37,705 nt of DNA from Kamptonema formosum PCC 10802 (GTDB lineage Bacteria; Cyanobacteriota; Cyanobacteriia; Cyanobacteriales; Oscillatoriaceae): assembly GCF_000332335.1 (NCBI RefSeq), contig NZ_KB235949.1:15104-52808 (forward strand), in the 5' to 3' direction. The first letter of the stretch is position 1; every line of letters begins with the position of its first letter. The notes under the pieces were generated by a model. The model had not been told where the DNA came from, did not search any database, and saw only the letters and a list, made by a program, of their open reading frames with translations. Below, piece by piece: positions 18,308 to 35,431 of this stretch. The translations under genes were made by a program, and so were the position numbers.

Positions 18308-18320
18308 ACTAGACCCGTTC

Positions 18321-18441
18321 GTAGTTGGGCTTTAGCCCAAAGGTTCGTAGTTGGGCTTTAGCCCAAAGTTTGTAGTTGGGCTTTAGCCCAAAGTTTGTAG
18401 TTGGGCTTTAGCCCAAAGTTTGTAGTTGGGCTTTAGCCCAA
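18321..18441. repeat. Five-copy array of the GTAGTTGGGCTTTAGCCCAA repeat
   Basis: Copies begin at 18321, 18347, 18372, 18397 and 18422, with 5-6 bp between them (mostly AGTTT). It is the reverse complement of the unit at 576-705. The spacers are too short and too alike for a CRISPR. The array lies just upstream of the LD-carboxypeptidase start and downstream of the four-domain polysaccharide gene. Confidence 0.92.
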
Positions 18442-18485: not shown

Positions 18486-20486
18486 TTACTGCGACTGGTC
18501 TGTTTTGGCGTTTTCCTCAGACTGCAAATATATTACCTTGTCGCTGCCTGCCGGTGGCTGGGACATAGCAGCTTTTTTGCGATTCCTTCTTTTCCGCCCA
18601 ATTCTGTTCAGCTTCAACAAAATTTTTGCCATTCTATGCATCCGATGCTTGCCGCGCCTTTCCGGAAAGCCGTCACGCTCCAGCCATTCCCCAGTCATAC
18701 CCGGTTTAAAATTCAGACGGCTGCCATCTTGCAGGGCATATTTATTGAGATCCTTTTCCGTCAGGGCTCGTCTCCCTACCAAGCTCATCTCTCCCATCAA
18801 GACGTTCCAGAACTCGGGCAATTGCTCCAGTCCCGTCTTCCGCAAAAAACGCCCAACCCGAGTCAGCTTCGCTTCGCCTTCGCTCTCAACCAACTTATCA
18901 ATCACCCGGGAAGATACGGGCTTTGCCAACGTTCTCGCACCGGCTGCCGTCGCGCGAAATTTCCACAGGCGGAAGCGCTTCCCCATCAACCCACAGCGAA
19001 CCTGACTCAATAAAATTGGCCCCGGGCTCTCTAGCTTAATGGCGATACTGATGGGAATAAACACAATCGCTGTAATCGCCAGACCAATACAGCCCCCTAA
19101 AATGTCAGTGATACGCCCTGTGCGATTCGGGGCAGCAGAATGCAATGGCCGTGTGGGAGGCAGGGTTAGGCTGGGCGTGCGAACTGTTTCCGTGGCCGTT
19201 TCGATGGTTAACACATTATCCAGCTCAGCTTTCGATAAAATCAGCCTGACTTCAGGCCCCACACTCCAGAACACGAGCTGCCGGCCTAGAGAACGAGCGA
19301 TGTTGTGGATATCAACCAAAGTTTCCAAAGCCAGGCTATCAATGAACTTCGTTTTGCTCATATCCAGGACAATTTTTCGCACCTCTTTTGGGAATCCCTG
19401 CTGGAAATGTTTTTTGAATTCCCGGAAGGCCCGCTGGGTAAAAGCTGGAGGCGTGAGCAGGATCAAAGTATCTTTGAAAGTCACCATAGTCTGCGGCTTG
19501 CATTCTAAAGCAAGAGCTTCCCTTGATGGGGTCACCGGCTCCTCCCCAATATATTGAGCTTTCGGATAGAGACTGGCTATTTGTTTCCCTTGGACAATGA
19601 GTTGATCGATCCCCGATAAAGCTTGCAATATCCGAGCCGACAGACTCAGCTGCTTTAACCGAGTTTTGGATTCTACAAAGATCACCTGGCTGCCACAGAA
19701 GAATTTGGCGATCAGCAAGAAAGGAACTGCCACACCGGCACCCGTAGAAAGCACTAAATCCGGTTTTTCCAGACTGAGTATAACTTTGAACGCCAGCAGG
19801 AGGTTCCTGATTAAGTTAGGGATATTGCGATTGGTCGGACTGTAAGCCCAGTACACGCGCCCCTTTTCCGCTTGCAGCTCTGATGCTGTGGTGCCTGTCT
19901 TGAAAGTCACCCAGCAAACCTTTTCAAATTGACTCCAAAACCCTTTCAGCTGCCGCATCGCTTTATAGTGGCCACCTGAAGAGCAAACCAGCATCAGTTT
20001 TTTGTATTCCTGCCTGTCATAGCGCTGCTTCAGCGCCTGACAAATTTTGCTTTCATTGTTATTCTGAATCAGCCGGCAAGGAACCGGTGCGGCCAGAAAT
20101 CTGGCCAAATCCCCAACTGACCAAGCCACCGGCACGCCTTGCTGTTCTAAGGCTTCCGCCATCTCTATTTGATGGTCGTCAACATGCTCGCCAAACCGCC
20201 GGGTGCGCGGCACTAATATAAAAGGTTTCCCCAAGGATTCCAGCAGCATTGCTGTCCCTTCCCCACAGTGGGCGACAATAACTCGCGCCTCTTCCACTAC
20301 AGCTTGGAAGACGGACTCCGGCAGGCACTGGTATACTTTGGCTCCATCCGGAATTTTTGTGGATGAGCCATACTGCACAATCACTTCTTCCTTTCTGTCG
20401 ATTATCCCGTAGCGGATTAAGACATCCACCCAATCCATTAAGGCATTAAAGGGATATTGCTCGGTTCCTACTGTTACTAAAATCAT
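18486..20486 (-). CDS. Four-domain fusion: Alg13-like, Alg14-like, STAS and bacterial sugar transferase
   Basis: A 666-residue fusion. Residues 1-150 (MILVTVGTEQYPFNALMDWV, VAHCGEGTAMLLESLGKPFI) are an Alg13/PssE-like GT28 C-domain. Residues 163-315 (LMLVCSSGGHYKAMRQLKGF, PDLVLSTGAGVAVPFLL, IFVESKTRL) are Alg14/PssD-like. Residues about 335-430 (KIVLDMSKTKFIDSLALETL) are a STAS domain. Residues about 455-615 are a PssY/WcaJ-type sugar transferase with a membrane hairpin (462-486) and SPGPILLSQVRCG. Alg13/14 pairs transfer a sugar onto a lipid-linked acceptor; the transferase would normally prime the lipid carrier. Here the catalytic dyad (normally DELP) reads E554-Q555-LP, and the PRP motif reads RRA, so that domain may be inactive. 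The STAS Ser384 follows Asp383, but the usual phosphoacceptor position is Leu. Probably a membrane-bound glycosyltransferase with a regulatory STAS module. Confidence 0.85.
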   Translation of the reverse strand: MILVTVGTEQYPFNALMDWVDVLIRYGIIDRKEEVIVQYGSSTKIPDGAKVYQCLPESVFQAVVEEARVIVAHCGEGTAMLLESLGKPFILVPRTRRFGEHVDDHQIEMAEALEQQGVPVAWSVGDLARFLAAPVPCRLIQNNNESKICQALKQRYDRQEYKKLMLVCSSGGHYKAMRQLKGFWSQFEKVCWVTFKTGTTASELQAEKGRVYWAYSPTNRNIPNLIRNLLLAFKVILSLEKPDLVLSTGAGVAVPFLLIAKFFCGSQVIFVESKTRLKQLSLSARILQALSGIDQLIVQGKQIASLYPKAQYIGEEPVTPSREALALECKPQTMVTFKDTLILLTPPAFTQRAFREFKKHFQQGFPKEVRKIVLDMSKTKFIDSLALETLVDIHNIARSLGRQLVFWSVGPEVRLILSKAELDNVLTIETATETVRTPSLTLPPTRPLHSAAPNRTGRITDILGGCIGLAITAIVFIPISIAIKLESPGPILLSQVRCGLMGKRFRLWKFRATAAGARTLAKPVSSRVIDKLVESEGEAKLTRVGRFLRKTGLEQLPEFWNVLMGEMSLVGRRALTEKDLNKYALQDGSRLNFKPGMTGEWLERDGFPERRGKHRMHRMAKILLKLNRIGRKRRNRKKAAMSQPPAGSDKVIYLQSEENAKTDQSQ

Positions 20487-21125: not shown

Positions 21126-22268
21126 CTAAAGACCAATGGCGTGAAGGACAGACCAGTCAAGGGTATCCCGATTGCGGAGCTTTAATTCCGTCAGCAGCTT
21201 TTTGTCAAAAATACCAAATCCACCCTGGTACTCCCAGAGCGCATAGCCAATTTGGGAGCGAGAAAGCAAATTGGCCACATCCCTGTGCCAGTTGAGGCGG
21301 TCTGCCGCCGGCCCAACCTTCTTGTAGACGCCAAACTCGCCGCAGTACACCGGCACCCGGTACTGCTGGCGGAACTTCAACACCGGCTCCAAGTCGCGGG
21401 CGATATGGTCGCTATTGTACTTTTCATACTGGTACCAGTCAAGCCACTTTTGCGCCGGCGCAGCGGGAATCGACTGTCTGGCTAACCGGAACCGCGCCGC
21501 GTCGTAGGGGTAAGGGATATCCCTGACCTTTTCCAATCCCGAAATCCAGTCCGCTCCTTGGTGAGTGAACGTTTTGTGTTCGTAGAAGTGGAACGTGTAA
21601 ATGACATTGCCATCCCCCACCGGCTTCATATCGGCAAAACTTTGTGGATTGCTCCACCCGTGCGCCCCAACAATAATCGTGTGACGCCGGTCAGCGTCCC
21701 GAATGCGGCGGATCAGGGCATTGCAGATTTCTTGCCAAGCCGCCCCATCTTTGAGCTGGGGTTCATTGAGCAGTTCATAGAAAATCTTTCCCCCCCGATC
21801 GCTGTAGCGCTTGGCGATCTCCCCCCAGAGTGTCTCCAGCCGGCTCACCGCTGCCGGTTCTATGACATCGTTTGGCGACGGTGCCGGGTGGAGGTCAATA
21901 ATAATCGCCAAATCGTGCCGGTCAGCCCAGTCCAGCGCCCTGTCCAGATACTGAAAATTTTCAGGGCGAATCCTGTAGGGTTCTGTCTTTTCCTGCAACA
22001 GGTCCGGATCGACCGGCAGGCGCACGTGAGTCATCCCAATCGAGCGGACGAGAGCAAAATCATCTTCTACAATCGAGCTGTTTATCTCTTCTGGAGTCAG
22101 TGACGCCTGAGCCAGCCAGTGGCTCAAGTTAACCCCCTTAGCCAGGAGCTGAACCTCCTGATCCAGCAGCCGGTCGGCAACTGCCGGTCCGCGCCAAAAA
22201 GGAACCGCGACCAGTAAAATAGCTATCACAGCCACCCGTATAAATTTGCTACGACCAACCTGCATCAT
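21126..22268 (-). CDS. Exported glycoside hydrolase family 5 (endoglucanase-like)
   Basis: A 380-residue protein. An N-terminal membrane or signal segment (KFIRVAVIAILLVAVPFW, about 8-25) precedes a GH5 barrel: LLAKGVNLSHWLAQ, GMTHVRLPVDPDLL, LAIIIDLHPAPSP, the acid/base Glu in KIFYELLNEPQL, YTFHFYEHKTFTHQG, the nucleophile Glu in PVYCGEFGVYK and the barrel-closing YALWEYQGGFG. GH5 enzymes cut beta-linked glycans with retention. In an exopolysaccharide locus such a hydrolase may trim or release the polymer, as BcsZ does in cellulose systems (inference). I start at the Met at 22268, since upstream codons translate a heptamer repeat (22272-22345). No Shine-Dalgarno is visible. The spacer of 172 bp from the upstream GT2 gene is the repeat region. 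Confidence 0.9.
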   Translation of the reverse strand: MMQVGRSKFIRVAVIAILLVAVPFWRGPAVADRLLDQEVQLLAKGVNLSHWLAQASLTPEEINSSIVEDDFALVRSIGMTHVRLPVDPDLLQEKTEPYRIRPENFQYLDRALDWADRHDLAIIIDLHPAPSPNDVIEPAAVSRLETLWGEIAKRYSDRGGKIFYELLNEPQLKDGAAWQEICNALIRRIRDADRRHTIIVGAHGWSNPQSFADMKPVGDGNVIYTFHFYEHKTFTHQGADWISGLEKVRDIPYPYDAARFRLARQSIPAAPAQKWLDWYQYEKYNSDHIARDLEPVLKFRQQYRVPVYCGEFGVYKKVGPAADRLNWHRDVANLLSRSQIGYALWEYQGGFGIFDKKLLTELKLRNRDTLDWSVLHAIGL

Positions 22269-22271
22269 ATT

Positions 22272-22345
22272 GATTTTGGATTTTGGATTTTGGATTTTGG
22301 ATTTTGGATTTTGGATTTTGGATTGGGCATGGGGCATGGGGCATG
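22272..22345. repeat. Two adjacent heptamer tandem arrays (STRR type)
   Basis: Seven perfect copies of GATTTTG (22272-22320) are followed, after GATT, by GGGCATG repeated four times and a fading fifth (from about 22325). Both arrays have period 7. They occupy the 5' flank of the GH5 gene. Related GATTTT-based runs are at about 10047-10075 and 12970-12985. Confidence 0.88.
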
Positions 22346-22440
22346 GGGCATGGGGCAGTGGGCGATGGGGCATTGGGTCACTTATCACTTACGTCCTGAA
22401 ACCTAACCCCGTGCCCCCGTGCCCCCTAACCCTGTACCTC

Positions 22441-23463
22441 CTAACCCTTACTGCCTTTATAGATAATGCGTTCTTGGGATTTTACCACCTGACGCATCCC
22501 GCGCGCCTCCAGCCGGTCATAGAGTTTGCGCGGCAAAATAGCCAGCACATAAGCCGCGATCCAAGTCAGAATCGTCCGCCGGGGTTCTTGGACAATGATG
22601 CGGGGATCGGTGAGCAGGGCTTCGTGCAGCAGCTGGATGGCCATTTTCGCATCCCGGATCTGGACGGCTCGGCGCGACAGGTAGCGCAATTGATAGGCTC
22701 GCGCCAACTTCCCCCACTTGTCAACAATATCTGGCGCGTAGGAGCGAGTTTTCTCAATCGCCTGCTCCCAGGAGGCTAGCTGTTTTAGCACGCTCGCAGA
22801 AAGCCCGCCGGTGTTCACCCGGTACAGAGTCAGCGGCTCTGGAATGCCTTCAATTTCCCAATCGGTTTTAATCGAGATGCGAATCCAGCACTCAATATCT
22901 TCTGACTGGCGGAAGCGGTCATCAAAGTAGAAATCTTCTACAGTTCCGTGGATATTATCCTGAAACCGAATCGCTTCCAGCACTTCTCGGCGGATCACCG
23001 GCGCGGAGCCATTGCCAATCGGATTGCGGCACAGCAGGTGAGGCGTGGTAATGCCGGTGAGTTTCGGCATCTGATAGTAGTTTAAAGGGTTGCCCTCACC
23101 GTCAATGAAAGCTGACCGGCTGAAGCTGACCCCAACTTGCGGGCGACTGTCCAGGTGCTGGACGTGTCTCTCCAGCTTCTCTGGCAGCCAAAGGTCATCG
23201 GAATCGAGAAATGCCAGATAATCGCCTGTGGCGTGGCGGATGCCGGTGTTCCTGGCACCGGCCAGCCCTCGATTTTTCTGGCTGATAATTTTAATCCGGG
23301 AGTCTTGGAATTGCCGGCAAATTTCCACACTCCTGTCTGGAGATTCGTCGTCAACAACGATCAGCTCAAAATGCGGGTAGGTCTGTTCCAGTACAGATTG
23401 AATCGTCTGGGCGACGTATTTCTCTACGCTGTAGACGGGAACAATAACTGATACTTTTTTCAT
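22441..23463 (-). CDS. Family 2 glycosyltransferase of the polysaccharide locus
   Basis: A 340-residue GT2 enzyme. It shows VSVIVPVYSVEKYVAQTIQS at the N-terminus, VVDDESPDRS (about 36-45), GLAGARNTGIRHATG, the metal-binding FLDSDDLWLPEKL (about 89-101) and RQSEDIECWIRIS, where the catalytic base is expected. The C-terminal third (about 225-340) is helical with a hydrophobic segment (LTWIAAYVLAILP), which could associate with the membrane. It would add one sugar to the lipid-linked repeat unit. It starts 15 bp after the asparagine-synthase-like gene stop, so the two are co-transcribed. It resembles the HpsE type of hormogonium polysaccharide loci, but I cannot assign that name safely. The donor sugar is unknown. 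Confidence 0.88.
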   Translation of the reverse strand: MKKVSVIVPVYSVEKYVAQTIQSVLEQTYPHFELIVVDDESPDRSVEICRQFQDSRIKIISQKNRGLAGARNTGIRHATGDYLAFLDSDDLWLPEKLERHVQHLDSRPQVGVSFSRSAFIDGEGNPLNYYQMPKLTGITTPHLLCRNPIGNGSAPVIRREVLEAIRFQDNIHGTVEDFYFDDRFRQSEDIECWIRISIKTDWEIEGIPEPLTLYRVNTGGLSASVLKQLASWEQAIEKTRSYAPDIVDKWGKLARAYQLRYLSRRAVQIRDAKMAIQLLHEALLTDPRIIVQEPRRTILTWIAAYVLAILPRKLYDRLEARGMRQVVKSQERIIYKGSKG

Positions 23464-23478
23464 GGTACTTTAGAAAAA

Positions 23479-25362
23479 CTAGGCAACAAACTTATTTGTT
23501 GAGTCGCGGCGGACTGACCAATAATTCAGCAGCGTCAGAATCCGGAATAAAGAATAAGGTGAGTTGCCGTGACTCATCCCCTTCGAGTTGAGTACGGCTG
23601 GCTTTGACCACTCGGCAAGGGGCACGCTCCAAGGATCGCTCCCCCAAAGATCGCACATCAGCTGCCGGTCAGCAACCGGCGCGCTCTCCCACATTTCTCG
23701 CAAAGTGGTGCTGTGAGTCACATACCAGCCCAGGTTTGGCCAAGACCCATCGGTAGCCGGCCCTTGATGCTGCGCCACCGGCACTGGTTTCAGACGCCGC
23801 AGCACCCAGTCTTTGGCAAAAATCAGGAGTTTTTTGGCTTTGGAAGAACCGGGCCGCCAGCCCCGGTTAGCATCAACCACGTTTGTACCACAAATGCGAG
23901 CAACTGTCAACTCCCACAAAGTGCCGTTCAATTTCCACCGCGCCGGTATGCGGCTGTAGCACTCAGCGATGGCGCGGTCAGCGATGAAGGAATCGTAAGG
24001 AAAAAGGCGAAACATTACTGGCCCGGAACTGGCGGCGTGATAGCAGCCGGGCCGGTTTTGCTTGTCTTCAAATTTGAGGTGGTCTTGATTCGATTTGAGA
24101 TGATACGGTGTGTCCCCAAACCATTCCTTGATGCGGCGCTCCATCTCCGGGCCAAATTTTGGGGGTGCCGGTCGCTGCGGATGTTCATATCCAAAGCTAT
24201 CCTGCCGATCGCTTTCCAGCTGAAAAAAAGGCAGGTTGCGACCCAAGAATTGCTGGTAACTTTTTTCTAAATTGTCTCCTTTGAACAAATTGTCCACCGG
24301 GCAGGCTGTCAGCACTGTGCGAGCGCCCAGCTGTTGGAGCAGGTCGCGGGTTCCCAGAAAATGATTGTCTTCTGCTGACCACATCGCCCCGGACAGGCGC
24401 ACCCCAGAGCGCATCCAGCGCGGGTAATAGTCGTCGTCTCTGGCAAAGCCAATGTATCTCACACCGGCTGTCTCGCACAGTTGCTTGGCTAAAGCCGCTT
24501 CTTTATTGGGAACGTCATAGAGGTTGACGCCATATACGCACGACCGGTCAGCTGCAGAAAAAAGGACAGCTCGCGAATCCATGCCGCCGCTGGTGTAGCT
24601 GACAGCCGGACCGAGACGGGGGAGGGTGCGGATTTTAATCGCATTCTTTACAGCTTCCGAAAGTTGCTCTGCAGCCGTTTTCAAGTTGGGGAAAAAGCCC
24701 TCTTGAAAGGGCTGCCAGTAGGCCCGCTGCCGGCAGGTTGATTCCGCCAGGTCCCAGCACCAGTGGCTGGCAGCACCGGCATGTTTAATTTCGCTGTAGT
24801 AGGTGTGCGGTGGGGTGGCTTGCCACTCCCGCAAAAACTCCGCCATTGAGACATAATCGGGCGTGGTTTCTACCTCTGGGTCGTCTGCTATCGCATCGGG
24901 AAATGATGAGATCGCACACCCTTCTATGGCTTGGGGGCGGTAGAGGAACACCGGATAAAAACCAAAATGATCTGTCAGCAGGTGCAGCTGCTGCGAGCGC
25001 GGGTCCCAAATCAGGAGTGCCGCCGAACCGTTGTGCCGCTCAATGGCGCTGATCCCTCCAGAGAGGTATTTATCCAGGAGGAGCCGATTGCTCAAACCGC
25101 CGGTGTATTCCTTCATTTTCTCGGCTCTTTGCCAGTCAGGCTCATCCCACGCCACCCGCCCTGCCGTCACCACCCGCACGCCGGTTTGCGCGTGGTGTGC
25201 CGGTGCGAACAGCTCGGGCGGGTCATGGCTGACCCAAGCAATCCCTAACCCAGGCTCCTCAATGATTGAGGCGTGTTCGCCAGGGAAAAAAGTGAGCCGC
25301 TGCGCCGCTGCGAAGATGCGGCGGGTATTCGTGTTGCCAATCGTTACATACAGTCCTGCCAT
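23479..25362 (-). CDS. Asparagine-synthase-like protein lacking the glutaminase cysteine
   Basis: A 627-residue AsnB-like protein. The N-terminal half (1-175) has the class II glutamine amidotransferase layout (FPGEHASI, HNGSAALLIWD, LLTDHFGFYPVFLY), but it starts MAGLYV where an active enzyme has Met-Cys-Gly, so glutamine hydrolysis should be lost. The synthase half keeps the PP-loop AVSYTSGGMDSRAV (about 254-266), yet the later signature is degenerate (CPVDNLFKGD). It may adenylate a carboxylate and amidate it using free ammonia, for example a uronic acid of the polymer. This is inference, since such proteins recur in cyanobacterial surface-polysaccharide loci without known reactions. Its ATG overlaps the stop of the upstream flippase by one base (TAATG). 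Confidence 0.87.
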   Translation of the reverse strand: MAGLYVTIGNTNTRRIFAAAQRLTFFPGEHASIIEEPGLGIAWVSHDPPELFAPAHHAQTGVRVVTAGRVAWDEPDWQRAEKMKEYTGGLSNRLLLDKYLSGGISAIERHNGSAALLIWDPRSQQLHLLTDHFGFYPVFLYRPQAIEGCAISSFPDAIADDPEVETTPDYVSMAEFLREWQATPPHTYYSEIKHAGAASHWCWDLAESTCRQRAYWQPFQEGFFPNLKTAAEQLSEAVKNAIKIRTLPRLGPAVSYTSGGMDSRAVLFSAADRSCVYGVNLYDVPNKEAALAKQLCETAGVRYIGFARDDDYYPRWMRSGVRLSGAMWSAEDNHFLGTRDLLQQLGARTVLTACPVDNLFKGDNLEKSYQQFLGRNLPFFQLESDRQDSFGYEHPQRPAPPKFGPEMERRIKEWFGDTPYHLKSNQDHLKFEDKQNRPGCYHAASSGPVMFRLFPYDSFIADRAIAECYSRIPARWKLNGTLWELTVARICGTNVVDANRGWRPGSSKAKKLLIFAKDWVLRRLKPVPVAQHQGPATDGSWPNLGWYVTHSTTLREMWESAPVADRQLMCDLWGSDPWSVPLAEWSKPAVLNSKGMSHGNSPYSLFRILTLLNYWSVRRDSTNKFVA

Positions 25363-26681
25363 TATGCCGCTCCCGTCAGGTTAGTTGTTTTTGTAACCAG
25401 ATATCGCGTCACCCACAAGGTATACAGGGGGAGTGCAACTGCGTGGGCGAGGAAAACCGCCGCAGCCACGCCCAGAATATTCCAGTTCGCCCCTATCAGT
25501 AAGGCTGCAGAAAAAATCACTGTGAACGCTAAATTCCAGCGCAGGTCCCAGTCGGGTTTATCTATTGCCCACAACCCCTGGGATGCTGCATTGGCGAAAG
25601 GCCGGGGTATTGCCGACAGGCAAATTAATATCAAAATAGGAATGGCGGGAATCCATTTCTGGCCAAAAACAATGGGCACGTACCAGGGGGCTAAGCAAGA
25701 TTGCAGGAGAACCACTGGCAGGATCAGGAGAGCGATGTTTTTTAAGCTGCTTATATAGGTTTTCCTGAATTCCTCTGGCTCCGACCGGCTCGCGCACAGG
25801 TGGGGGAATAAGGCCGAGTCTATCGCGTTGATAACGCTCAGGCTAATCCCCAATCCGGCGTTAAAGGCAAAGTAATACACTCCTAGCGCCTCAATCCCCA
25901 GGAAGCGTCCCGCAATTAAGTAGTCTATGTTTTGCCTTAAGGTTTGCAGGAGTTCAATGCCCAGAATACTGCGACTGAAGCGGAAAATTTCTCCCGCCCG
26001 AGATAACCTAAACTTCTTAGGCCAGCGCCATTTATAGTGGATGCAGTGGACAGTCACCCAGACAGGAGCGACTAGCACTTTCGGCAAGACAATCGCCCAC
26101 ATCCCCAACCCCAAAAAAGCCAGAATAACGGTTAAAACGTTGTCGGATGACACTTGCAGTGCGTTAGCGAGCGCCGTTACCTGCAAGCGATTTTCCCGCT
26201 GAACTAGGGCGGCTTGAATGGCCCCCAGGGGAATCATTAAATAAACGAGAGCGATTGTGCAGATTGGCCAAATGACTTGGCTGTCTTTGTAGAACCACCC
26301 GACGGCTAAAGCGACAAGGCACTGAATAGCAAACAGGGAGCCACAGATCAGCCAAGTTAGCCAATAAGCAGTCTGGCAAAGCTCCTCTAAATCCTCCTCA
26401 TCCGCTTGAACTAGCTTATCCCAGATGCCATTGCGAGTGAAAACACTGACAAATTCATTGGTTGTCAGGACAACCGCAGCCAAGCCATAATCGTAAGGCG
26501 TGAGCAAGCGGGCCAGAACCACCGTGGCGGCCAATCGGGAAATCCGGATGAAAACTTCTGCCGCCCCCATCCAGCCAACGTTGCGGACAAACCGATTGGA
26601 TAGCTTTTGATTTAAAAAATCAATCAGTCTTGTAAGATTTCCCAAATTAAGCTCTCCCACTGAATAACATAGTTTTTCCAT
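25362..26681 (-). CDS. Polysaccharide flippase (Wzx/PST type), paralog 1
   Basis: A 439-residue integral membrane protein with about 12 hydrophobic segments, of the polysaccharide transporter (Wzx/RfbX/WzxC) family that flips undecaprenyl-linked repeat units across the membrane. Landmarks are VVLARLLTPYDYGLAAVV (about 56-73), GRFLGIEALGVYYFAFNAG and VFGQKWIPAIPILILICLS. It is strongly similar over its whole length to the protein at 27800-29062. The longest ORF begins at ATG 26681 and overlaps the preceding GT4 gene by 58 bases. A TTG at 26645 with GGGAG about 9 bp upstream fits the paralog's N-terminus better and may be the true start. It is translationally coupled to the following asparagine-synthase-like gene. 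Confidence 0.88.
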   Translation of the reverse strand: MEKLCYSVGELNLGNLTRLIDFLNQKLSNRFVRNVGWMGAAEVFIRISRLAATVVLARLLTPYDYGLAAVVLTTNEFVSVFTRNGIWDKLVQADEEDLEELCQTAYWLTWLICGSLFAIQCLVALAVGWFYKDSQVIWPICTIALVYLMIPLGAIQAALVQRENRLQVTALANALQVSSDNVLTVILAFLGLGMWAIVLPKVLVAPVWVTVHCIHYKWRWPKKFRLSRAGEIFRFSRSILGIELLQTLRQNIDYLIAGRFLGIEALGVYYFAFNAGLGISLSVINAIDSALFPHLCASRSEPEEFRKTYISSLKNIALLILPVVLLQSCLAPWYVPIVFGQKWIPAIPILILICLSAIPRPFANAASQGLWAIDKPDWDLRWNLAFTVIFSAALLIGANWNILGVAAAVFLAHAVALPLYTLWVTRYLVTKTTNLTGAA

Positions 26682-27607
26682 GCGTCCCTGACTGATTCGC
26701 GACCCCGCTGCCCCCAGTCTTTCAGCGCTGACTCGGGGAGAGAGCAGAGTTTTTCGAGCGCGCCGGCTAGAGATTCAGGCTCGTCTGGTGTTACTAGAAT
26801 ACCGCAATCACTGAGCTGTTCAATCAAGCCATCCACACGGCTGGCAATCACCGGCTTGCCTGCCGCTTTCGCTTCCAGACACACATTCCCCCAAGGCTCC
26901 CACCGCGAGGGAATCACCACCGCATCGCAAGCGTTTAAAAAAGCCGCGACATCACGGACGGTTCCGAGAAACTTAATATTTTCTTGTCCCCGGGCCAATT
27001 CTTGCAAAGCCGCTTCATCTGGCCCATACCCTCCCAGGTAAAGTCGCACATTTGCCTGAGGGATCAGCCGCATGGCCTGGATTAAAACATCAAATCCCTT
27101 CTGCCGGGAAAAGCGTCCGTAGGCTCCCAAGATTAGGGGCGACTTCACCGGCTTAGGGGGAAGCGCTAGGAGCTCTTCTATCTTTGTACTCTGTTGAATG
27201 ACTCTCAGTTTAGACGGTTTAACCAGCCTGTTTTCTGCCATCCACTGCGCCTGAGCGTGAGAAACGGCCACCACCCGATCGGCCAAACCGTAGGCCAATT
27301 TCAGCATCAGGCGAAATCGGGAGGGCCTGGCAACATTGTAAGTTTCAAATCCCTGGCAGTATTGGTGGTCGTGAATAATTAATTTGCTCCGGCTCTTCAA
27401 AAAAATTAGCTCCACCATTTTTAGCCACGCCGAGCTCTCATGAAAAATGATTAAATCGGGAGCGTATTCATTTATAAATGCCCAAGAATAGATCTCCCAT
27501 TCAATCACTTTGTAGTGCTCTCTCAGCGATTCATTCAGAAAATCTAAAACCTTATTAACTCCTCCCAGCCTCCTGTCGTTTATTAAGTGTAAAATTCTGG
27601 CCCTCAT
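26624..27607 (-). CDS. Family 4 glycosyltransferase (GT-B fold)
   Basis: A 327-residue GT4 enzyme. The N-terminal half (RILHLINDRRLGGVNKVLDF, IIHDHQYCQGFET, VVAVSHAQAQWM) binds the acceptor. The C-terminal half has LILGAYGRFSRQKGFDVLIQ (about 182-201), then VRLYLGGYGPDE and the donor-binding IPSRWEPWGNVCLEAKAAGK with the E-x7-E pair, as in GT4 retaining transferases. It is cytosolic or membrane-associated and adds a sugar to the lipid-linked unit. I start at 27607 (MRARILHL), with a G-rich stretch 7 bp upstream; two Mets a little upstream are alternatives. It lies 192 bp after the flippase paralog 2 gene and overlaps the next gene. The donor sugar is not predictable. Confidence 0.89.
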   Translation of the reverse strand: MRARILHLINDRRLGGVNKVLDFLNESLREHYKVIEWEIYSWAFINEYAPDLIIFHESSAWLKMVELIFLKSRSKLIIHDHQYCQGFETYNVARPSRFRLMLKLAYGLADRVVAVSHAQAQWMAENRLVKPSKLRVIQQSTKIEELLALPPKPVKSPLILGAYGRFSRQKGFDVLIQAMRLIPQANVRLYLGGYGPDEAALQELARGQENIKFLGTVRDVAAFLNACDAVVIPSRWEPWGNVCLEAKAAGKPVIASRVDGLIEQLSDCGILVTPDEPESLAGALEKLCSLPESALKDWGQRGRESVRDAWKNYVIQWESLIWEILQD

Positions 27608-27680
27608 CCCCATACCCCCCAATAAAATACAGGTCCGTCTCATACCAAGTTGGGATAGATAGTATTTTCCCCTCGGGGTG

Positions 27681-27703
27681 AAAAGGCTTTATTGCCGCCT
27701 TTT
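27681..27703. terminator. Weak terminator-like hairpin between flippase 2 and GT4 genes
   Basis: AAAAGGC (27681-27687) pairs with GCCTTTT (27697-27703) around a 9-base loop. On the minus strand the 3' arm ends in four T. It might reduce read-through from the first half of the locus into the second. Confidence 0.35.
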
Positions 27704-27799
27704 TCAGTCCAAAATCTAAAATCCCAAATCCCAAATTGGTATAAATCCTTACCTTTCAGGCTGAAAAAATTCCCAAACCCTACTGGCCCGTCCCAACCC

Positions 27800-29062
27800 C
27801 TACATTTCAGGCTGTAAAAATTTCACAAATACATAACGGCTGGCCCAAACGGTAAACAGAGGCAGTAAAATCACGTGAGTTAAGAAAACCGACGCCGCCA
27901 CCCCAGTCGCGTCCCACTGAACGCCAACCAGCAGTCCGCCGGTGAACAGGGCTGTAAAGATCATATTCCAGCGCAAGTCCACGTCAGGTTTGTCCACGGC
28001 CAGCAACAGCTGAGACGCCGCATCAGCAAAAGGACGGGGAATTGCCGACAGGCAAATCAAGACCAGGATGGGAATCGCACCCACCCATTTTTGCCCAAAA
28101 ACAACCGGCACATAGAAAGGCGCTAGACTCGATTGTAACAGCACCAGGGGTACAATGATGGTGGTAATCGTTTTCAGGCTGCTGAAATAGCGAGCCTTGA
28201 ACTTGGACACTTCTGACCGGACCGCACAGAGGTGGGGGAGCAATGCTGAATTGATGCCGTTGATAATGCTGATGCTAATCCCCAACCCGGCATTGAAGGC
28301 AAAGTAGTACAGCCCCAGAGCCTGAATTCCCAAAAAACGGCCTATAATTAAATAATCTAGGTTATTTCGGAGAGTCTTTAGCAACTCAACTCCCAGAACG
28401 TTCCGGCCAAAGATGAAAATTTCCCTCCAGTACTGGGTGGTAAATCCTGAGGTGCGCCGCCAGGGGTGATTGGTATAGTTGATCGCCACCCAAATCGGCC
28501 CAACTAAAACTTTCGGCAGGACAATAGCCCACATCCCCATGCCCAAAAGAGCAAAAATTAAGGTCAGTACATTATCTGCAGAAATTTGCAGCGTACTGGC
28601 GAAGGCTTGGATTTTCAGCCGGTTGTCTCGACGAATCAGAGCCGACTGCACCGCCGCTATGGGGATCATTAAATACACTAAGCCGGTGACGCATATCGGT
28701 AAAATCAGCTGGCTGTCATGGTACAGCCAGGCTATCGGGAAGGCCACCGCACACTGAATGACAAATAAACTGGAAAGAACCACCCAGTTTAACCAGTAGG
28801 CTGCATTGCACAGGGTTTCTAAATTTTCATCGCCGGCCTGAATCAGTTTGGCCCCAATGCCGTTGCGGGAAAACACCCGCGTGAACTCATTCGTTGTCAG
28901 CACCACAGCGGCCAAGCCGTAGTCGTAGGGGGTCAGCAAGCGGGCTAAAACCACCGTTGTGACCAGCCGGAATATCCGGATAATCAACTCTGACCCACTG
29001 AGCCAGCCGATATTGCGAATAAACGGATTGCTCAGCTTCTTTTTGAGAAAATCCAGTGACAT
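27800..29062 (-). CDS. Polysaccharide flippase (Wzx/PST type), paralog 2
   Basis: A 420-residue membrane protein with about 12 hydrophobic segments, of the same family as the protein at 25362-26681. Shared blocks include VVLARLLTPYDYGLAAVV, GRFLGIQALGLYYFAFNAG, VFGQKW and LICLSAIPRPFADAASQ. It would flip a lipid-linked oligosaccharide to the periplasm. I start at MSLDFLKKKL (29062), which has AAGGAA about 7 bp upstream and lies 14 bp after the methyltransferase stop. A longer form from 29089 would overlap that gene. Its 3' end (about 27803-27830) is partly repeated downstream at about 27749-27776 (TTTCAGGCTG then A-rich), suggesting a local duplication. Confidence 0.88.
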   Translation of the reverse strand: MSLDFLKKKLSNPFIRNIGWLSGSELIIRIFRLVTTVVLARLLTPYDYGLAAVVLTTNEFTRVFSRNGIGAKLIQAGDENLETLCNAAYWLNWVVLSSLFVIQCAVAFPIAWLYHDSQLILPICVTGLVYLMIPIAAVQSALIRRDNRLKIQAFASTLQISADNVLTLIFALLGMGMWAIVLPKVLVGPIWVAINYTNHPWRRTSGFTTQYWREIFIFGRNVLGVELLKTLRNNLDYLIIGRFLGIQALGLYYFAFNAGLGISISIINGINSALLPHLCAVRSEVSKFKARYFSSLKTITTIIVPLVLLQSSLAPFYVPVVFGQKWVGAIPILVLICLSAIPRPFADAASQLLLAVDKPDVDLRWNMIFTALFTGGLLVGVQWDATGVAASVFLTHVILLPLFTVWASRYVFVKFLQPEM

Positions 29063-29076
29063 TGGGGTTCCTTTTC

Positions 29077-30309
29077 CTATCGCAAGCAAGCAAAGAGAGT
29101 GCGACCGTAGCGATCTGCGAACGGGGGGACACTGTCCGAGTCTGTCCCCAGCCGGCAGATTTTCGTGAAGCTAGTCTTGTCTCGCAGCCACTCCTCGATG
29201 CGGTCAGCGTCCCAACCGGCCAGGGAGTCGCGAAACGGGGCTTCGTGGCCCTGCCCCATCTCCAAAAACAGGACGCTGCCGGTGATCTCGTCGAGAAACC
29301 GCAGCATTTCCTCCGCCGAGATGCTGCCCTCACCCAAAAGGAAGCGGTGCAGCAGGCCCAGGCAGGTGGTGACATCGTAGCGTTCTGGATGGCTTTCCAG
29401 GAAGCTAACTGCTTCAGATCGAATCAGTTGAGCCGGTGCCAGACCGTAGGCCACCTTGCCGGCCTCAATGCATGCCCAGTCCAGATCCACCCCCCGGGCC
29501 TCAAACCCCAGCTGGCTGAATGCCCGCACGAACCAGCCGTAACCGCAGGGGATATCCAAGTACGTCCGGCACTGGGGCGGCATCAGGCTGTGCGTTTCCA
29601 GAAACCGCTGCATCATCTCAAACCGGTCGGTGCAGCGGCGCATCACCACCCATTTTTTTCCCAGTTCGGGACTGGAAATCGGCTGGTACAGCATTAGCTC
29701 GCCCCGCAGCCAGCCAACTTCTAGCAACCGCTCTTGCAGCGGCGTCAGGCTGGCCGGGCCGAGGGGGCGCACCGGGTAGGTTTTCTCGCCGCGCACATAA
29801 GCGAGGGCCAGCCGGTGGTTGCCATCCATGACCTCGTAACAGTTTGAGTGCTGGATGGGGTGCACGCAAACCTGTGAGCTCGTTGAGGAAAAGTAAGCAG
29901 AGTAGGCCGAGGGAAGCGGGGTCGAGTCTCGGGGGGTTTCGTTGCCCAACCGGCTGACGAACCGGCGGGCCACTTGCTCGACTTGCTCGGGGCGGGTGCA
30001 GCTGAAGTAGTGGCCTGTCACGTTGATGCACTCAGCTGCATTGGCAAAATAAGCCGTTTCCTGGAATACCTCCGGGCGGAAAATCTCGTCCCCGATTTGC
30101 TGGTACTGTTCCAGCAACTGGACGTGAGGCGACTGGGAAAAGGGGGTGGAGGGCCGGCGGCAGTTGCCGGTGTGGCGTGCGTACTGGGCCGCCGACAGCC
30201 AGTCCTCCCCACCGCAGAGCAAGCGGTCGAAGGGAACGCGCTTGGTGTTCAGCTTCCGCCAAGTCTGGCGCACAATGTTCAGTATCTGATTAGTTGGCGA
30301 TATCGGCAT
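29077..30309 (-). CDS. ParB-like (DGNHR) domain fused to a class I SAM-dependent methyltransferase
   Basis: A 410-residue protein with two parts. In the N-terminal half, YEVMDGNHRLALAYVRGEK (about 158-176) matches the DGxHR core of ParB/sulfiredoxin-fold domains. The C-terminal half is a Rossmann methyltransferase: RTYLDIPCGYGWFVRAFSQL (motif I, about 248-267), FEARGVDLDWACIEAG (acidic loop binding SAM, about 270-285), then YDVTTCLGLLHRFLLG and SVLFLEMGQG. In a polysaccharide locus it may methylate a sugar, while the ParB-like part could bind nucleotide or phosphorylate a small molecule, as SerK does (inference). It starts 13 bp after the polymerase stop, with AAAGGA 5 bp before ATG 30309. 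Cytosolic; no membrane segment. Confidence 0.78.
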   Translation of the reverse strand: MPISPTNQILNIVRQTWRKLNTKRVPFDRLLCGGEDWLSAAQYARHTGNCRRPSTPFSQSPHVQLLEQYQQIGDEIFRPEVFQETAYFANAAECINVTGHYFSCTRPEQVEQVARRFVSRLGNETPRDSTPLPSAYSAYFSSTSSQVCVHPIQHSNCYEVMDGNHRLALAYVRGEKTYPVRPLGPASLTPLQERLLEVGWLRGELMLYQPISSPELGKKWVVMRRCTDRFEMMQRFLETHSLMPPQCRTYLDIPCGYGWFVRAFSQLGFEARGVDLDWACIEAGKVAYGLAPAQLIRSEAVSFLESHPERYDVTTCLGLLHRFLLGEGSISAEEMLRFLDEITGSVLFLEMGQGHEAPFRDSLAGWDADRIEEWLRDKTSFTKICRLGTDSDSVPPFADRYGRTLFACLR

Positions 30310-30322
30310 TTTTCCTTTAAAG

Positions 30323-31546
30323 TTACCGCAGCAAACCCCGAGAGGGGATTTTTTCTCTAAAGGCCACGCCCATGATCACTAGGGCCGGCCAAAAGAGATA
30401 GGCTAGTATCTCTAAGTTTTCCCCAAACGTGTACAGAAATAGAATCAGCACCATACTCAACCCCACCCGAGCCACGGCACTGTTCTGGGCCTTGACCAGC
30501 AAGTCGGCAAAACTCCACAGCATCGGCACGGCGAGGGCCAGCAGCCCGACGATGCCTTTCACGAACAGCAGGCCATACCAGCTGTGGTGAGAGCCGATGG
30601 GCATGAATTCCACTAAGTGCGGCCCTTTTTCGACAACGCCGTGCCCCCATACCGGCGCTTCGCTCTCCCACCGGGCTACGGCGATTTTCCCCAGCTCGCC
30701 CCGCACCCGCGACGAAGCGGCGCGAGCACTTTTGAATTTGTCCCAGAAAACGGAGATCCCGTCCAGAATCGCGGGAGCGGCAAACCCGGCAAAAGTCGAG
30801 CCCAACCCCATGAGGATCAGCAGCACTGGCTGGCTTAAATTGCTTAATAAGGACGTCACGCAGGCCACCACCGGCAGGCACAGCAGCGCCAGCCTCGATT
30901 TCGACATCAGGCACATGAGAATGCTGCCGGCAATCCCGAACCAGCGCCATTTTTTCTCTTTTTCCTGGAGCGCGAAGAAAAAATAAATGTTGGCCACAAA
31001 CCCCACTGCCGGTGCCCAAGGCGTGAACAGCCGCCACCGGGGTGCGCCAGAGTCTGGTTCGAGCTCGTAAAGATTAAAGGAAAAAAACTCGTCTCCCGGT
31101 CCGCCCACTAGTCTTAGCGGCGAGACGTAGAGCATTGGCGGCAGGTGCAGCTTCTGGGCCAGGATAAAGATGGGCGCGAGCAGCACGGTGTGGTAGCAGA
31201 CGATACAGGCGGCGCGATAGATCAGCTGGGGGCGAACTGGCAAGCAGCCAATCAGGGGAAAGATTGCCATCAGCGCCCAGCCTTTGGCCCAGCCTATCGA
31301 GGATTTGATGGTTGCCGGCAAGCCCAAGTTGTAATCGAGGTGGCCCATGACCAGCGCCAGTTCCATCACCAGCATGGCGATCGCCCACACCCACACTCCT
31401 AAAGGAATCGAGATCCGCTCCTCCTCCGGGGTTCGGTCGGTTTGCTCCCACAGCTTTTTGCCCAGGTAAAACAGCAAAATCCAAGCGATGACAGGAGCGA
31501 CTACATACAGCCCCCCGATCGCGTAGAACCCGTAGGTGCCTACCAT
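30323..31546 (-). CDS. O-antigen ligase / Wzy-like polysaccharide polymerase
   Basis: A 407-residue membrane protein with about 10-11 hydrophobic segments. A large loop near the C-terminal third (about 270-325) reads SSRVRGELGKIAVARWESEA, PVWGHGVVEKGP, then GSHHSWYGLLFVKG. Arg and His in this loop are typical of the O-antigen ligase/polymerase superfamily. It joins or transfers lipid-linked repeat units on the periplasmic face of the membrane. Whether it polymerises or ligates is not decided by sequence. I start at MVGTYGFYAIG (31546), 11 bp after the stop of the upstream co-polymerase gene. A longer form from 31606 would overlap that gene by 49 bases and cannot be excluded. Confidence 0.85.
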   Translation of the reverse strand: MVGTYGFYAIGGLYVVAPVIAWILLFYLGKKLWEQTDRTPEEERISIPLGVWVWAIAMLVMELALVMGHLDYNLGLPATIKSSIGWAKGWALMAIFPLIGCLPVRPQLIYRAACIVCYHTVLLAPIFILAQKLHLPPMLYVSPLRLVGGPGDEFFSFNLYELEPDSGAPRWRLFTPWAPAVGFVANIYFFFALQEKEKKWRWFGIAGSILMCLMSKSRLALLCLPVVACVTSLLSNLSQPVLLILMGLGSTFAGFAAPAILDGISVFWDKFKSARAASSRVRGELGKIAVARWESEAPVWGHGVVEKGPHLVEFMPIGSHHSWYGLLFVKGIVGLLALAVPMLWSFADLLVKAQNSAVARVGLSMVLILFLYTFGENLEILAYLFWPALVIMGVAFREKIPSRGLLR

Positions 31547-31557
31547 AGAGTGCCAGA

Positions 31558-32979
31558 TCAGTTTTTCTGGGAAATTTCTTGGTGATATCGTCGCTCGCGC
31601 ATCCACAACAAAATCAGCCCCGCTGTTACAAACAGTGTTCCTAAAGACGCCCCCGCTAACACCAGCAGTGTCTTGAGATTATTCGGTTTCTCCGGCGGTA
31701 CGGGTTTCTTGAGCAGCTGCACCAGCGGATACGCCGCGTAAATGTCGGATTTCCCGACATCTTGCTGGGCCATTGTAGAGCGGAAAACCGTTTCTGCCGC
31801 TTGCAGCTGGCTTTGCAAATCCTCTAACTTCGCCGCTTCCTCTATTTTTTGCGGCTGCTTGCTCTCCAGCTGCGCAATCTTCCGCCCCAGCTCCTCCGCT
31901 TGACCGGTCAGACCTTCTAGCTGCGCCCGCACGGAAATCAGCTCTTGAAACAAGTCCGCCCGTTTGTTGCTGACATCGCTCAGCATTAAAGGCTGCAGCT
32001 CTTGCTCGGACAGCTCTCGCCCCACTAACAGGCGAATGCGCTGCATTAATGCCTGACGAGCCGCTTCTTGTTTGGCTTGCTCGTCAACGACTCCGGGATG
32101 GGTTGGCGACCATTTGGACAGGTACGCTTTCAGGAGGGCGCTCGATTCAGCATAGTTTTTCAGGTATTGCTGAAAGACTGTATCAGCTTGCAGGACAAGG
32201 GCATCCGCAGCTTGCTGCGGTGTCAGCCCCAGACTTGCTGACATCTGCGCTTGCTTGCGATTTAATTGCTCTTGCTCCGCCTGCACCTCTATTTGCTGTT
32301 TCCGCAATTGCTCGATGTTGAGCGAGATTTCTCTAAACTGGTCTATAGATGCCAAGCCGGTGCGGGATTGATAAGCCAGCAACTCCTGCTGCGCCTTTTG
32401 CAGCTTATCTCTAGCTCTTTCGATGGTATCTCGAACTCCCTGCTGTCGCTGCCGAGCTTCCTCCGCCCTCAGTTCTGCGAGTCGCTGTTGGAAGGCTTCG
32501 TAGAGCGCCAGCGATTTCTTTGTCGAGCCTTCAGCACTCTTGGCGCTCACGCTAATATTCATCACAGCAGTTTGAGGGACGAGCTTGATTTTCGGCTCGC
32601 CTAAATCTTTAACCTCTATCCCCAGCTTTTGCGCCGCCGCTTCCAGGACGGGATCGCTTTCTAAGATCGCCTGGTAATTGGCTCTCGGATCTAGAGATAA
32701 ACTGGAGTAGGGAGAATCGCTCGAGGAAGATGCCTGTCCGATGTTATTTATGGAAACGTTTGATTTTACCCCGGTTTCCGGCAAAATCAAAGACCACTCA
32801 CAGATGTAACTGGGAGGCGCTACTTTCAAATACGTTACCACTACCCCCCAGAGCAGGGCGTTTGCTCCCACCCCCGAAACTGTATAGCGCACCCAGCTCC
32901 AGCGCCCGGTTTTCACTTTTCCTGTTTCAGGTTCTTCTATAGAGTCCAACCAATTAGATTTTTCAACGCTCTTCGTCAT
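31558..32979 (-). CDS. Polysaccharide co-polymerase (Wzz/chain-length determinant-like) without kinase domain
   Basis: A 473-residue protein with a membrane segment near the N-terminus (about 40-58, ANALLWGVVVTYLKV), a long periplasmic region dominated by coiled coils (about 150-400), and a second membrane segment (about 440-462) preceded by the Pro-rich LLKKPVPPEKPNNLKTLLV that is diagnostic of Wzz/PCP proteins. It ends in a short basic cytosolic tail, with no Walker motifs or Tyr-rich cluster, so a kinase partner is not fused. It controls chain length and export with the downstream polymerase. It is the first gene of the locus. The start at 32979 (MTKSVEKS) has AAGGT 6 bp upstream. A long gene-free leader lies before it. 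Confidence 0.88.
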   Translation of the reverse strand: MTKSVEKSNWLDSIEEPETGKVKTGRWSWVRYTVSGVGANALLWGVVVTYLKVAPPSYICEWSLILPETGVKSNVSINNIGQASSSSDSPYSSLSLDPRANYQAILESDPVLEAAAQKLGIEVKDLGEPKIKLVPQTAVMNISVSAKSAEGSTKKSLALYEAFQQRLAELRAEEARQRQQGVRDTIERARDKLQKAQQELLAYQSRTGLASIDQFREISLNIEQLRKQQIEVQAEQEQLNRKQAQMSASLGLTPQQAADALVLQADTVFQQYLKNYAESSALLKAYLSKWSPTHPGVVDEQAKQEAARQALMQRIRLLVGRELSEQELQPLMLSDVSNKRADLFQELISVRAQLEGLTGQAEELGRKIAQLESKQPQKIEEAAKLEDLQSQLQAAETVFRSTMAQQDVGKSDIYAAYPLVQLLKKPVPPEKPNNLKTLLVLAGASLGTLFVTAGLILLWMRERRYHQEISQKN

Positions 32980-33956
32980 TACAAGACCTTCAGTGGGAGG
33001 CAAAAGGCACAGTTCAACAATCTTTAAGAGTTCTATTTTGCTGTGAGATTTCGGAGGCTAGTTTATCACTGTAGCGCAGTACAGGGCCATACTTCTCTCC
33101 TCTCACTCTGAACATCTTTAACGCACCGCACTTAGAATAAATTAAAATGATCCAAACCACCTCTCTTTTGAGAAACTAATTTTTACTCGCCCTGATTCGC
33201 GGCTGGTTGTGGGAACTCCCTCTCACTCCTTCAAGTCTAACCCCTCTTGTCTGCCCTCCCTCCTGGCTGCAAGCTTTCTTAATACTTTTAAAGAAACTAT
33301 TAAAGTAAAAGACTTGACCGAGAGAATCTCTGGCTGTATTTTATGAAAACCTGCCGGCTGACTCAACGAGAACAAAGGTAAAATTCCAAGCTTACTCCTC
33401 TCCCAAGCCTCCTGACGAGATACCATTTAAACCCTTCAGGCCAAAAAGGGGCTCCCCATCGCCCTGAAGATTTGCAGCGGGAACTCACTTGAGCGAGTGT
33501 TTCCCCTCACACACTGTTCGCAATCCCACCAGTCCCAGTCGGACTGCTGACGAGCTGCTGGCATCACCCCAAGCTCCTTCTCCGTCACAGCACCCTGCCG
33601 ACTCGTGAGCGCCACTGATCGCCCTGCGGCGTCCCCCAGACAAGTCGGTCACAAGACGGTTGCCAAACACCCCTCACTGAGAAAAGTTCTGAACGCCCAC
33701 TTTAGGGAATTTTTTTGTTCAATACGCAAGTATAGCACGAAATATTCTGTTTCTCTGTTTTTTAGAACTTTTCTTAATTTGAAGTTCTGCCGGCACTCCG
33801 GCTTCCCAGTGGCTTCACGCCCAGTTTCCGGCTGAAGGCCCTGATTGGGGATCGCACCGGCATTTCTGCAATCTTAACTCCTGCAGCGAGTCCCTGGCAC
33901 CCGCCGGTGGCAGCGGCAAGGGAGCTGCCGGTTGAGTCCAGCGGCGAAAGCCACTC
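32980..33956. other. Long gene-free region upstream of the polysaccharide locus
   Basis: 977 bp without a supported gene. It is the 5' flank of the minus-strand polysaccharide genes and the 3' flank of the winged-helix gene (33957-34715, also minus). It holds a hairpin at 33434-33469, a plus-strand promoter-like pair at 33314-33342 (TTGACC, 17 bp, TATTTT), and an inverted repeat AGAACTT/AAGTTCT at about 33763-33787. No riboswitch class could be identified. Confidence 0.55.
33434..33469 (-). promoter_or_regulatory. Nested hairpin in the presumed polysaccharide operon leader
   Basis: The outer stem is CTTCAGG/CCTGAAG (7 bp). On the minus strand the inner part is GGGG-AG-CCCC followed by five T, which looks like a short terminator enclosed by the outer stem. 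If the leader starts upstream, the two foldings could compete as an attenuator. It is 455 bp before the first gene. Confidence 0.35.
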
Positions 33957-35189: not shown

Positions 35190-35411
35190 GGTGAGGAGAG
35201 CAAGACTCGCACTCGCTGCGGTCACGTTCGCGCCCGTAATGGTGGCTCCAAAGTTTTCCACTGTCCCAATTGCGGGTTTACGCTATATCGGGACTGGAAT
35301 GGGGGTTTCGGGATCTTCCTGAAAGCTTTGCGGGATAACGCCTCTATCGTCTTTGATGGCGATAGCGATCTCGTTGCATTGTCCCGGAATTGCCGGACAA
35401 ATGTCGCGTAA
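35190..35411 (+). pseudogene. TnpB (IS200/IS605 family) C-terminal remnant
   Basis: In one frame, between the stop TAG at 35187 and TAA at 35409, the translation contains ESKTRTRCGHVRA, then KVFHCPNCGFTLYRDWNGGF and GIFLKALRDN. This is the C-terminal zinc-ribbon and RDxNGAxxIF segment of IS200/IS605 TnpB proteins; the usual second ribbon Cys before CGH is replaced by Thr-Arg. Only about 70 codons remain, there is no start, and the upstream part is not TnpB-like. It is therefore a decayed fragment. No TnpA or clear element ends were seen. It ends 20 bp before the porin ATG, inside the porin leader. Confidence 0.8.
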
Positions 35412-35431
35412 ATGTATCAGAAAAGCTAAAA

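Follow-up and report, generated by a model that had tools for sequence, protein, structure and literature searches.

Can a single polypeptide start exopolysaccharide synthesis by transferring a sugar phosphate, go on to add the next sugar, and be switched as one unit by a STAS partner? This question is raised by a gene of the filamentous cyanobacterium Kamptonema formosum PCC 10802 (18486..20486, minus strand) in the window, that is, the whole 37,705-nt stretch of DNA analysed here (positions 15104-52808 of its contig; whole genome 8.59 Mb). The gene was found to be one uninterrupted ORF on the minus strand, with its ATG at 20486 and its stop ending at 18486, and it encodes a 666-residue chain of Alg13-, Alg14-, STAS- and PGT-like parts (ORF call, Pfam, NCBIfam and orthologues), the PGT being the initiating sugar transferase. 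As the original prediction had claimed, four domains stand in this order in one chain, for all four segments were recognised by Pfam profiles above cut-off: GT28_C at residues 1-116 (36.1 bits, cut-off 22), Alg14 at residues 222-314 (51.7 bits, cut-off 27), STAS at residues 355-431 (43.2 bits, cut-off 22.6) and Bac_transf at residues 458-603 (121.2 bits, cut-off 27), the last covering just positions 2-138 of the 179 in the profile.

On the minus strand, the Alg13/PssE/EpsF-like part spans residues 1-135 (20082..20486; profiles and motif alignment) with HCGEGT intact at 73-78, and the Alg14/PssD/EpsE-like part spans residues 161-320 (19527..20006) with an intact CSSGGH that contains His173. The NCBIfam models for PssE (NF041548; residues 2-129, 76 bits) and PssD (NF041549; residues 165-314, 100.9 bits) matched below their equivalog cut-offs of 120 and 110, respectively. 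These are followed by the STAS domain at residues 331-435 (19182..19496), which was identified by Pfam above cut-off, by a fold match and by motif alignment, and by a degenerate monotopic PGT domain at residues 447-603 (18678..19148; Pfam and alignment). A PDB profile search with the glycosyltransferase (GT) half gave no significant match; the PDB fold matches of the predicted model fell mainly on residues 160-314 and 331-432, and the Alg13 and PGT parts were absent from the fold listing. The fusion gene is the single Alg13/14 match in its own genome.

A frame error or a chance ORF was ruled out by two further assemblies with the same frame. The orthologue of Oscillatoria princeps RMCB-10 (G002) is unbroken over its full length and 88% identical to the window chain, and that of Oscillatoria sp. 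Prado101 (G001) is unbroken and 90% identical over residues 1-532, where its contig ends; the continuity between domains that the original prediction relied on was thus confirmed in both, in the latter to residue 532. Ka/Ks between the window and G002 chains (Nei-Gojobori) was 0.26 overall, which together with the shared frame shows the gene to be conserved rather than a random ORF or a product of misassembly. By part, Ka/Ks rose from 0.10 (Alg13) and 0.13 (Alg14) to 0.28 (STAS), 0.37 (PGT, residues 441-603) and 0.50 (C-terminal tail).

In the PGT half, the catalytic Asp-Glu was found by alignment to be replaced by Glu554-Gln555 (codons at 18822..18827, minus strand). This pair is described as the catalytic dyad of monoPGTs (PMC10942596). 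In the PGT alignment (loci L001-L035), the sequence at this place is GLEQLPEF in the window and O. princeps chains and SLDE(L/F)PQ in every other row that reaches it; Asp-Glu is present in the four other PGTs of the window genome (L001-L004). The DPR, (T/P)RP and C-terminal GR(S/N) motifs were also missing from the window and O. princeps PGT domains. A basic tail of 63 residues (604-666; 18486..18677, minus strand) replaces the PGT C-terminal core, and a three-frame read revealed no frameshift relic of a normal PGT end. A predicted membrane helix region was retained at residues 462-487 (19026..19103, minus strand, from the alignment; 455-486 in the model), which we take to be re-entrant from what is known of the family. 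In AlphaFold models built from an alignment of only 37 rows, pLDDT was low across most of the window PGT core from about residue 498, whereas a class I chain (see below), modelled from these 37 rows reordered, had a core of mostly high confidence. Judged from these sequence features, the PGT half of the window protein is probably dead; Glu554 still offers a carboxylate at the nucleophile position, and some residual PGT chemistry may persist. A Pfam match alone should be no ground for annotating this protein as a sugar-phosphate transferase.

To place the window chain among its relatives, GTDB species contigs were scanned with the Alg13-Alg14 part and two peptide patterns, a procedure whose counts are lower bounds. 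The scan yielded at least 58 loci, all cyanobacterial, with unique fused chains in 39 of the 58, so that 40 chains including that of the window were classified. Class I (16 chains, Pseudanabaena) has both halves intact, with the GT motifs and the STAS SSG in 16/16 and the PGT Asp-Glu pair in 15/15 readable chains, the sequence of L103 being cut before the pair. Class II (17 chains), a Pseudanabaena paralogue, has an intact PGT pair in 17/17 and lost GT motifs (HCDE; GG-Tyr or, once, Ala); thirteen genomes carry one chain of each of these two classes. Class III comprises 7 chains including the window chain, with the GT half intact (GGH in 7/7; HCGE in 6/7, the exception being L114 with a frame break in its Alg13 part) and the PGT dead or gone. 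Its PGT pair was intact in 0/5 readable chains: it reads EQ in 2 and DK in 3, where the kept Asp also leaves some chance of residual PGT chemistry, is unreadable in L097 at a contig end, and is absent along with the whole PGT from the 460-residue frame of Stenomitos (L101). The latter frame ends about 150 bases before the contig end, beyond which a PGT gene may lie.

The His of GGH is reported to be required for activity in the archaeal homologue Agl24 (PMC8993221), and class II, in which it is lost, is by this analogy very likely without GT activity. The dead class II GT half was nevertheless not free of constraint. Mean identities of class II versus class I over 78 genome pairs were 82.6 versus 82.9% for Alg13, 68.9 versus 76.6% for Alg14, 73.2 versus 77.1% for STAS and 82.4 versus 86.0% for PGT; since Alg13 is equally conserved and the other three parts less so, class II appears to evolve faster overall with its GT half still constrained.

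In an Alg13+14 tree of 57 rows with the motif columns removed, the fused chains all lay on one side of a 100/100 branch, class I and class II each forming one group and class III one or two. In the PGT tree (in which L151 is represented by another PGT from its locus), class III branches were very long and the placement of the class was not decided. The fusion thus appears, from these sequence comparisons, to have a single origin. It also appears to be an unusual architecture: in a phylum-wide draw, Alg13+Alg14+STAS chains, which we read as four-domain, were found in 4 of 386 genomes (G000, G230, G379 and G316) at E <= 1e-45. Longer fusions suspected in G011, G014 and G124 proved to be separate genes when their ORFs were checked. 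A 473-residue Alg13-STAS-PGT chain without Alg14 was observed in G047 (L082:8637-10055), with DCGK instead of HCGE in its Alg13 motif and an intact PGT pair; its gene adjoins, on the opposite strand, a match to the kinase HMM described below.

The STAS part was compared with SpoIIAA, to which the free STAS-PGT protein (see below) aligns across FMDSSG. In the test for a D-S-(S/T/A)-G motif, the window STAS was found to retain Ser384 (codon 19335-19337) at the phosphoacceptor position, followed by Leu-Ala in place of Ser-Gly; the alignment places the acceptor at the first Ser, so that outright loss of the phosphoserine was ruled out. Of the SpoIIAA structures, 1th8 reads MDSSG and 1tid MDASG, the latter being presumably a non-phosphorylatable mutant. 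The acceptor Ser is present in 16/16 class I, 12/17 class II and 4/7 class III chains, counts that reflect few events and not many independent ones, the classes being tree groups.

Partner genes were sought with an HMM grown from the 175-residue HATPase_c_2 protein encoded elsewhere in the window genome. Within 2 kb of the fused chains, 0/40 rows showed an RsbW-like kinase gene (39 unique chains; the rows are 39 named loci and a second O. princeps fetch, and 30 of them have at least 1.5 kb on both sides). No kinase-HMM match was found in the 1.5-kb flanks of the window gene (L006), and no HATPase_c_2 domain among the 20 window ORFs scanned. The proposed switching of the window chain by a STAS partner is thus not supported: the motif keeps Ser384 but has Ser-Gly changed to Leu-Ala, the serine is missing in 3/7 class III chains, and no partner gene was found within the distances searched. 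That this chain is one self-contained switchable unit for both transfers, as the original prediction had it, is therefore highly improbable: its architecture is right, and class I of Pseudanabaena retains both active sites and the STAS motif, but Glu-Gln stands for Asp-Glu, DPR, TRP and GRS are gone from the window chain and its full-length orthologue alike, and no kinase gene was found beside fused chains.

The window chain is, on its sequence, probably an Alg13/14-type glycosyltransferase with a pseudo-PGT and not a self-contained two-step unit. It combines an intact Alg13/Alg14 half with a STAS fold and a PGT without its catalytic pair, in a genome that holds a separate, intact STAS-PGT. 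The reading that we favour, with a probability of roughly 0.6, is that the gene encodes a membrane-attached glycosyltransferase of the EpsEF/PssDE type that adds the second sugar, its pseudo-PGT serving as an anchor or docking site and its STAS part as a spacer or dimerisation element. The acceptor of the enzyme would be the first sugar, carried on undecaprenyl diphosphate, of an exopolysaccharide made by the Wzx/Wzy route. EpsE/EpsF enzymes are described as adding a sugar to lipid-linked glucose (PMC8993221), the step that directly follows the PGT, which suggests that the window lineage kept step two and left step one to the free STAS-PGT. The role of the pseudo-PGT is suggested by its retained membrane helix, and docking would place the transferase beside the lipid-linked product of the free STAS-PGT. 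The STAS part would be an inherited element rather than a phospho-switch. We infer a single origin of the fusion in cyanobacteria, in the form of a two-step enzyme coupling steps one and two, followed by loss of either active site in later lineages.

Against the anchor, the relaxed Ka/Ks of the PGT part also suits a decaying relic, with function confined to the Alg13/Alg14 half and the C-terminal half on its way out. For comparison, the window genome and G002 gave a Ka/Ks of 0.027 over the PGT part of their free STAS-PGT, which counts for the favoured reading, and nonsynonymous to synonymous changes were 29:23 in the window PGT half versus 2:25 in that part (Fisher p = 2e-5, on rounded counts). 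Decay would also agree with the higher Ka/Ks of PGT and tail (0.37 and 0.50, against 0.10-0.13 in the GT half), with the differing PGT motif losses and very long PGT branches among class III chains, with the acceptor Ser gone in 3/7 of them, and with the L101 frame that has no PGT, which likewise indicates that an anchor is not always needed. Yet the frame is intact in two complete chains of the genus and to the contig end in a third, the membrane helix is kept, and the STAS (0.28) and PGT values, being below 1, show the fused PGT half to be relaxed but still constrained; we thus regard a mere relic as unlikely, though a contender to be taken seriously.

The position of the gene beside an exopolysaccharide cluster was borne out by the genes upstream on the same strand. 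A GH5 cellulase-like glycosidase lies 639 nt upstream (21126..22388, minus strand; profile match), and a cluster at 22441..33003 (minus strand; profile matches) comprises a GT2, an AsnB-like amidotransferase, two Wzx flippases and a GT4, with weak matches to methyltransferase, Wzy-like and chain-length-determinant-like proteins. In Pseudanabaena UWO311 (L102, class I) the fusion is followed by a Poly_export gene and then by homologues of six of these upstream genes (40-73% identity); such homologues also adjoin the fusion in L101 and, more weakly, in L099. None were found beside L098 (9 kb covered) or beside L122, the only class II locus examined, which partly contradicts the idea that the fusion travels with one cluster. 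The cluster core was also seen to vary between close species, since 25362-33003 holds two flippases and a methyltransferase-like gene, where O. princeps (L075/L095) has one flippase and a different 943-residue ORF. Repeats were observed around these genes: a 25-bp tandem repeat (GTTTGTAGTTGGGCTTTAGCCCAAA, 18317-18441, 5 copies, 98%) immediately past the fusion gene, a 25-bp repeat resembling it in opposite orientation at 660-711, 2.9 copies of a 99-bp repeat, whose length is divisible by three, in the N-terminal part of an SLH-OprB porin gene (35390-37396), and heptamer arrays (GATTTTG x7.6 and GGGCATG x7.4) at 22272-22377, within the 5' end of the GH5 ORF, whose listed GTG start is probably too early.

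The intact free STAS-PGT of the window genome lies on another contig (C3) than the fusion, and the 175-residue HATPase_c_2 protein (PF13581, 4.4e-21) is encoded right after it (the arrangement at L081:9378-11004). Of the unique free STAS-PGT loci, 57 have 1.3 kb or more of downstream sequence; 43 of these had an RsbW/SpoIIAB-like kinase gene within those 1.3 kb on the same strand and 14 did not, proportions that should not be read as phylum frequencies since the sample was picked by similarity to the window protein; the gene was present in 18 of the 22 loci that also have Alg13/14 upstream. In ten loci (Tolypothrix, Dolichospermum, Nostoc, Trichormus, Richelia and Anabaena) a free STAS gene comes after the kinase gene. 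Such an arrangement, with the free STAS in several loci, resembles a partner switch whose target is an initiating sugar transferase. Separate genes in the order Alg14-Alg13-STAS-PGT were found at 17 loci (L131-L135, L137-L142, L144-L147, L149 and L151), which indicates that simple read-through of the split order would not have produced the fusion, and the acceptor Ser is present in all 17 of their free STAS-PGTs. At L132 an extra STAS ORF lies in between, at L145 the STAS-PGT reads in pieces, and at L152 a PGT that has no STAS match lies upstream of Alg14 and Alg13.

A full-length free STAS-PGT was matched in four of the six class III genomes searched (G000, G002, FACHB-36 and UBA11370; the incomplete G001 was left out). 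Among the matches listed, Stenomitos (G420) and CRU_2_3 (G421) had small PGTs and no full free STAS-PGT, and the 11 Pseudanabaena-type genomes had no match spanning STAS and PGT outside fused chains. The co-occurrence of both proteins in one genome would also suit a pseudo-PGT acting as a regulator that forms mixed dimers with the free STAS-PGT, through STAS-STAS or PGT-PGT contacts, and so controls or localises the initiating step. The large monoPGT WbaP is described as a functional dimer, and EpsZ as an enzyme that a regulator probably activates by bringing about its dimerisation (PMC12802240). We give this reading very little credence, as the free gene has a kinase gene of its own on a different contig and the STAS motifs of the fused and free proteins have diverged.

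The proposed link between exopolysaccharide synthesis and signalling through STAS thus fits, judged on sequence, the free STAS-PGT genes, with their kinase gene downstream in 43/57 unique loci, better than the window chain, for which it is not supported. The best and strongest new lead of this work is that a partner-switch kinase may directly target an initiating sugar transferase, as the free STAS-PGT beside a kinase gene suggests. Tentatively, and at somewhat less than even odds, cyanobacteria may control exopolysaccharide initiation through a partner switch built into the enzyme, with the PGT-fused STAS phosphorylated by an RsbW/SpoIIAB-like kinase, and the fused lineages may have left the kinase and lost one active site. 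In such a scheme the second-step Alg14-Alg13 genes would often be found upstream, with a competing free STAS downstream. Lineages in which the second-step enzyme became joined to the switch would have parted from the neighbouring kinase, and one active site would then have been lost, giving complementary half-dead chains such as that of the window.

Several known systems resemble parts of these arrangements. All4160 of Anabaena PCC 7120 is described as an N-terminal STAS joined to a glycosyltransferase (PMC8256260) and is counted among the genes on which heterocyst envelope polysaccharide depends (PMC4390870). The free STAS-PGT genes are probably of this type, going by the description of All4160 and not its sequence. 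The available description mentions no Alg13/Alg14 part, and the free relatives found here keep the catalytic pair; compared with this type, known by description, in which STAS leads directly to an active PGT, the window chain carries a GT half in addition and has lost the PGT pair. PssE/PssD, Cps14G/F and EpsF/EpsE are homologous to its N-terminal half, with motifs intact, but are mostly split genes, whereas the window chain joins Alg13 to Alg14 and adds STAS-PGT. WelK and other re-fused Alg14-13 enzymes carry both halves in one chain, as the window protein does. Such re-fusion is reported to have occurred several times, with the order inverted in some eukaryotes (PMC8993221). WelK has the other domain order, since window residues 2-118 match positions 169-285 of its 319-position model, which, unlike the window chain, is without STAS or PGT.

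Bi-PGTs, in which a functional domain is described as fused to a monoPGT core (PMC10942596), share the domain-plus-monoPGT design; the window lineage differs in that the core of its PGT seems to be inactive. In the Myxococcus EpsW-EpsZ pair, a signalling protein is described as acting on an initiating PGT (PMC12802240), but by that account through a response regulator and not a STAS with an RsbW-type kinase. In the HmpU/V/W partner switch of Nostoc punctiforme, a STAS protein and a kinase are described as controlling hormogonium motility and polysaccharide (PMC8256260, PMC6495340); the STAS protein is separate there, and the available accounts describe no PGT fusion. Among literature titles and abstract openings, in which subscription journals are thinly covered, we found none on an Alg13-Alg14-STAS-PGT fusion or on a STAS-PGT with a kinase.

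These arrangements bear on when bacteria commit undecaprenyl phosphate to exopolysaccharide. The mirror-image loss of active sites in the four-domain chains makes the physical coupling of the first two repeat-unit steps testable, and the free STAS-PGT beside a partner-switch-type kinase gene makes the gating of the first step by STAS phosphorylation testable.
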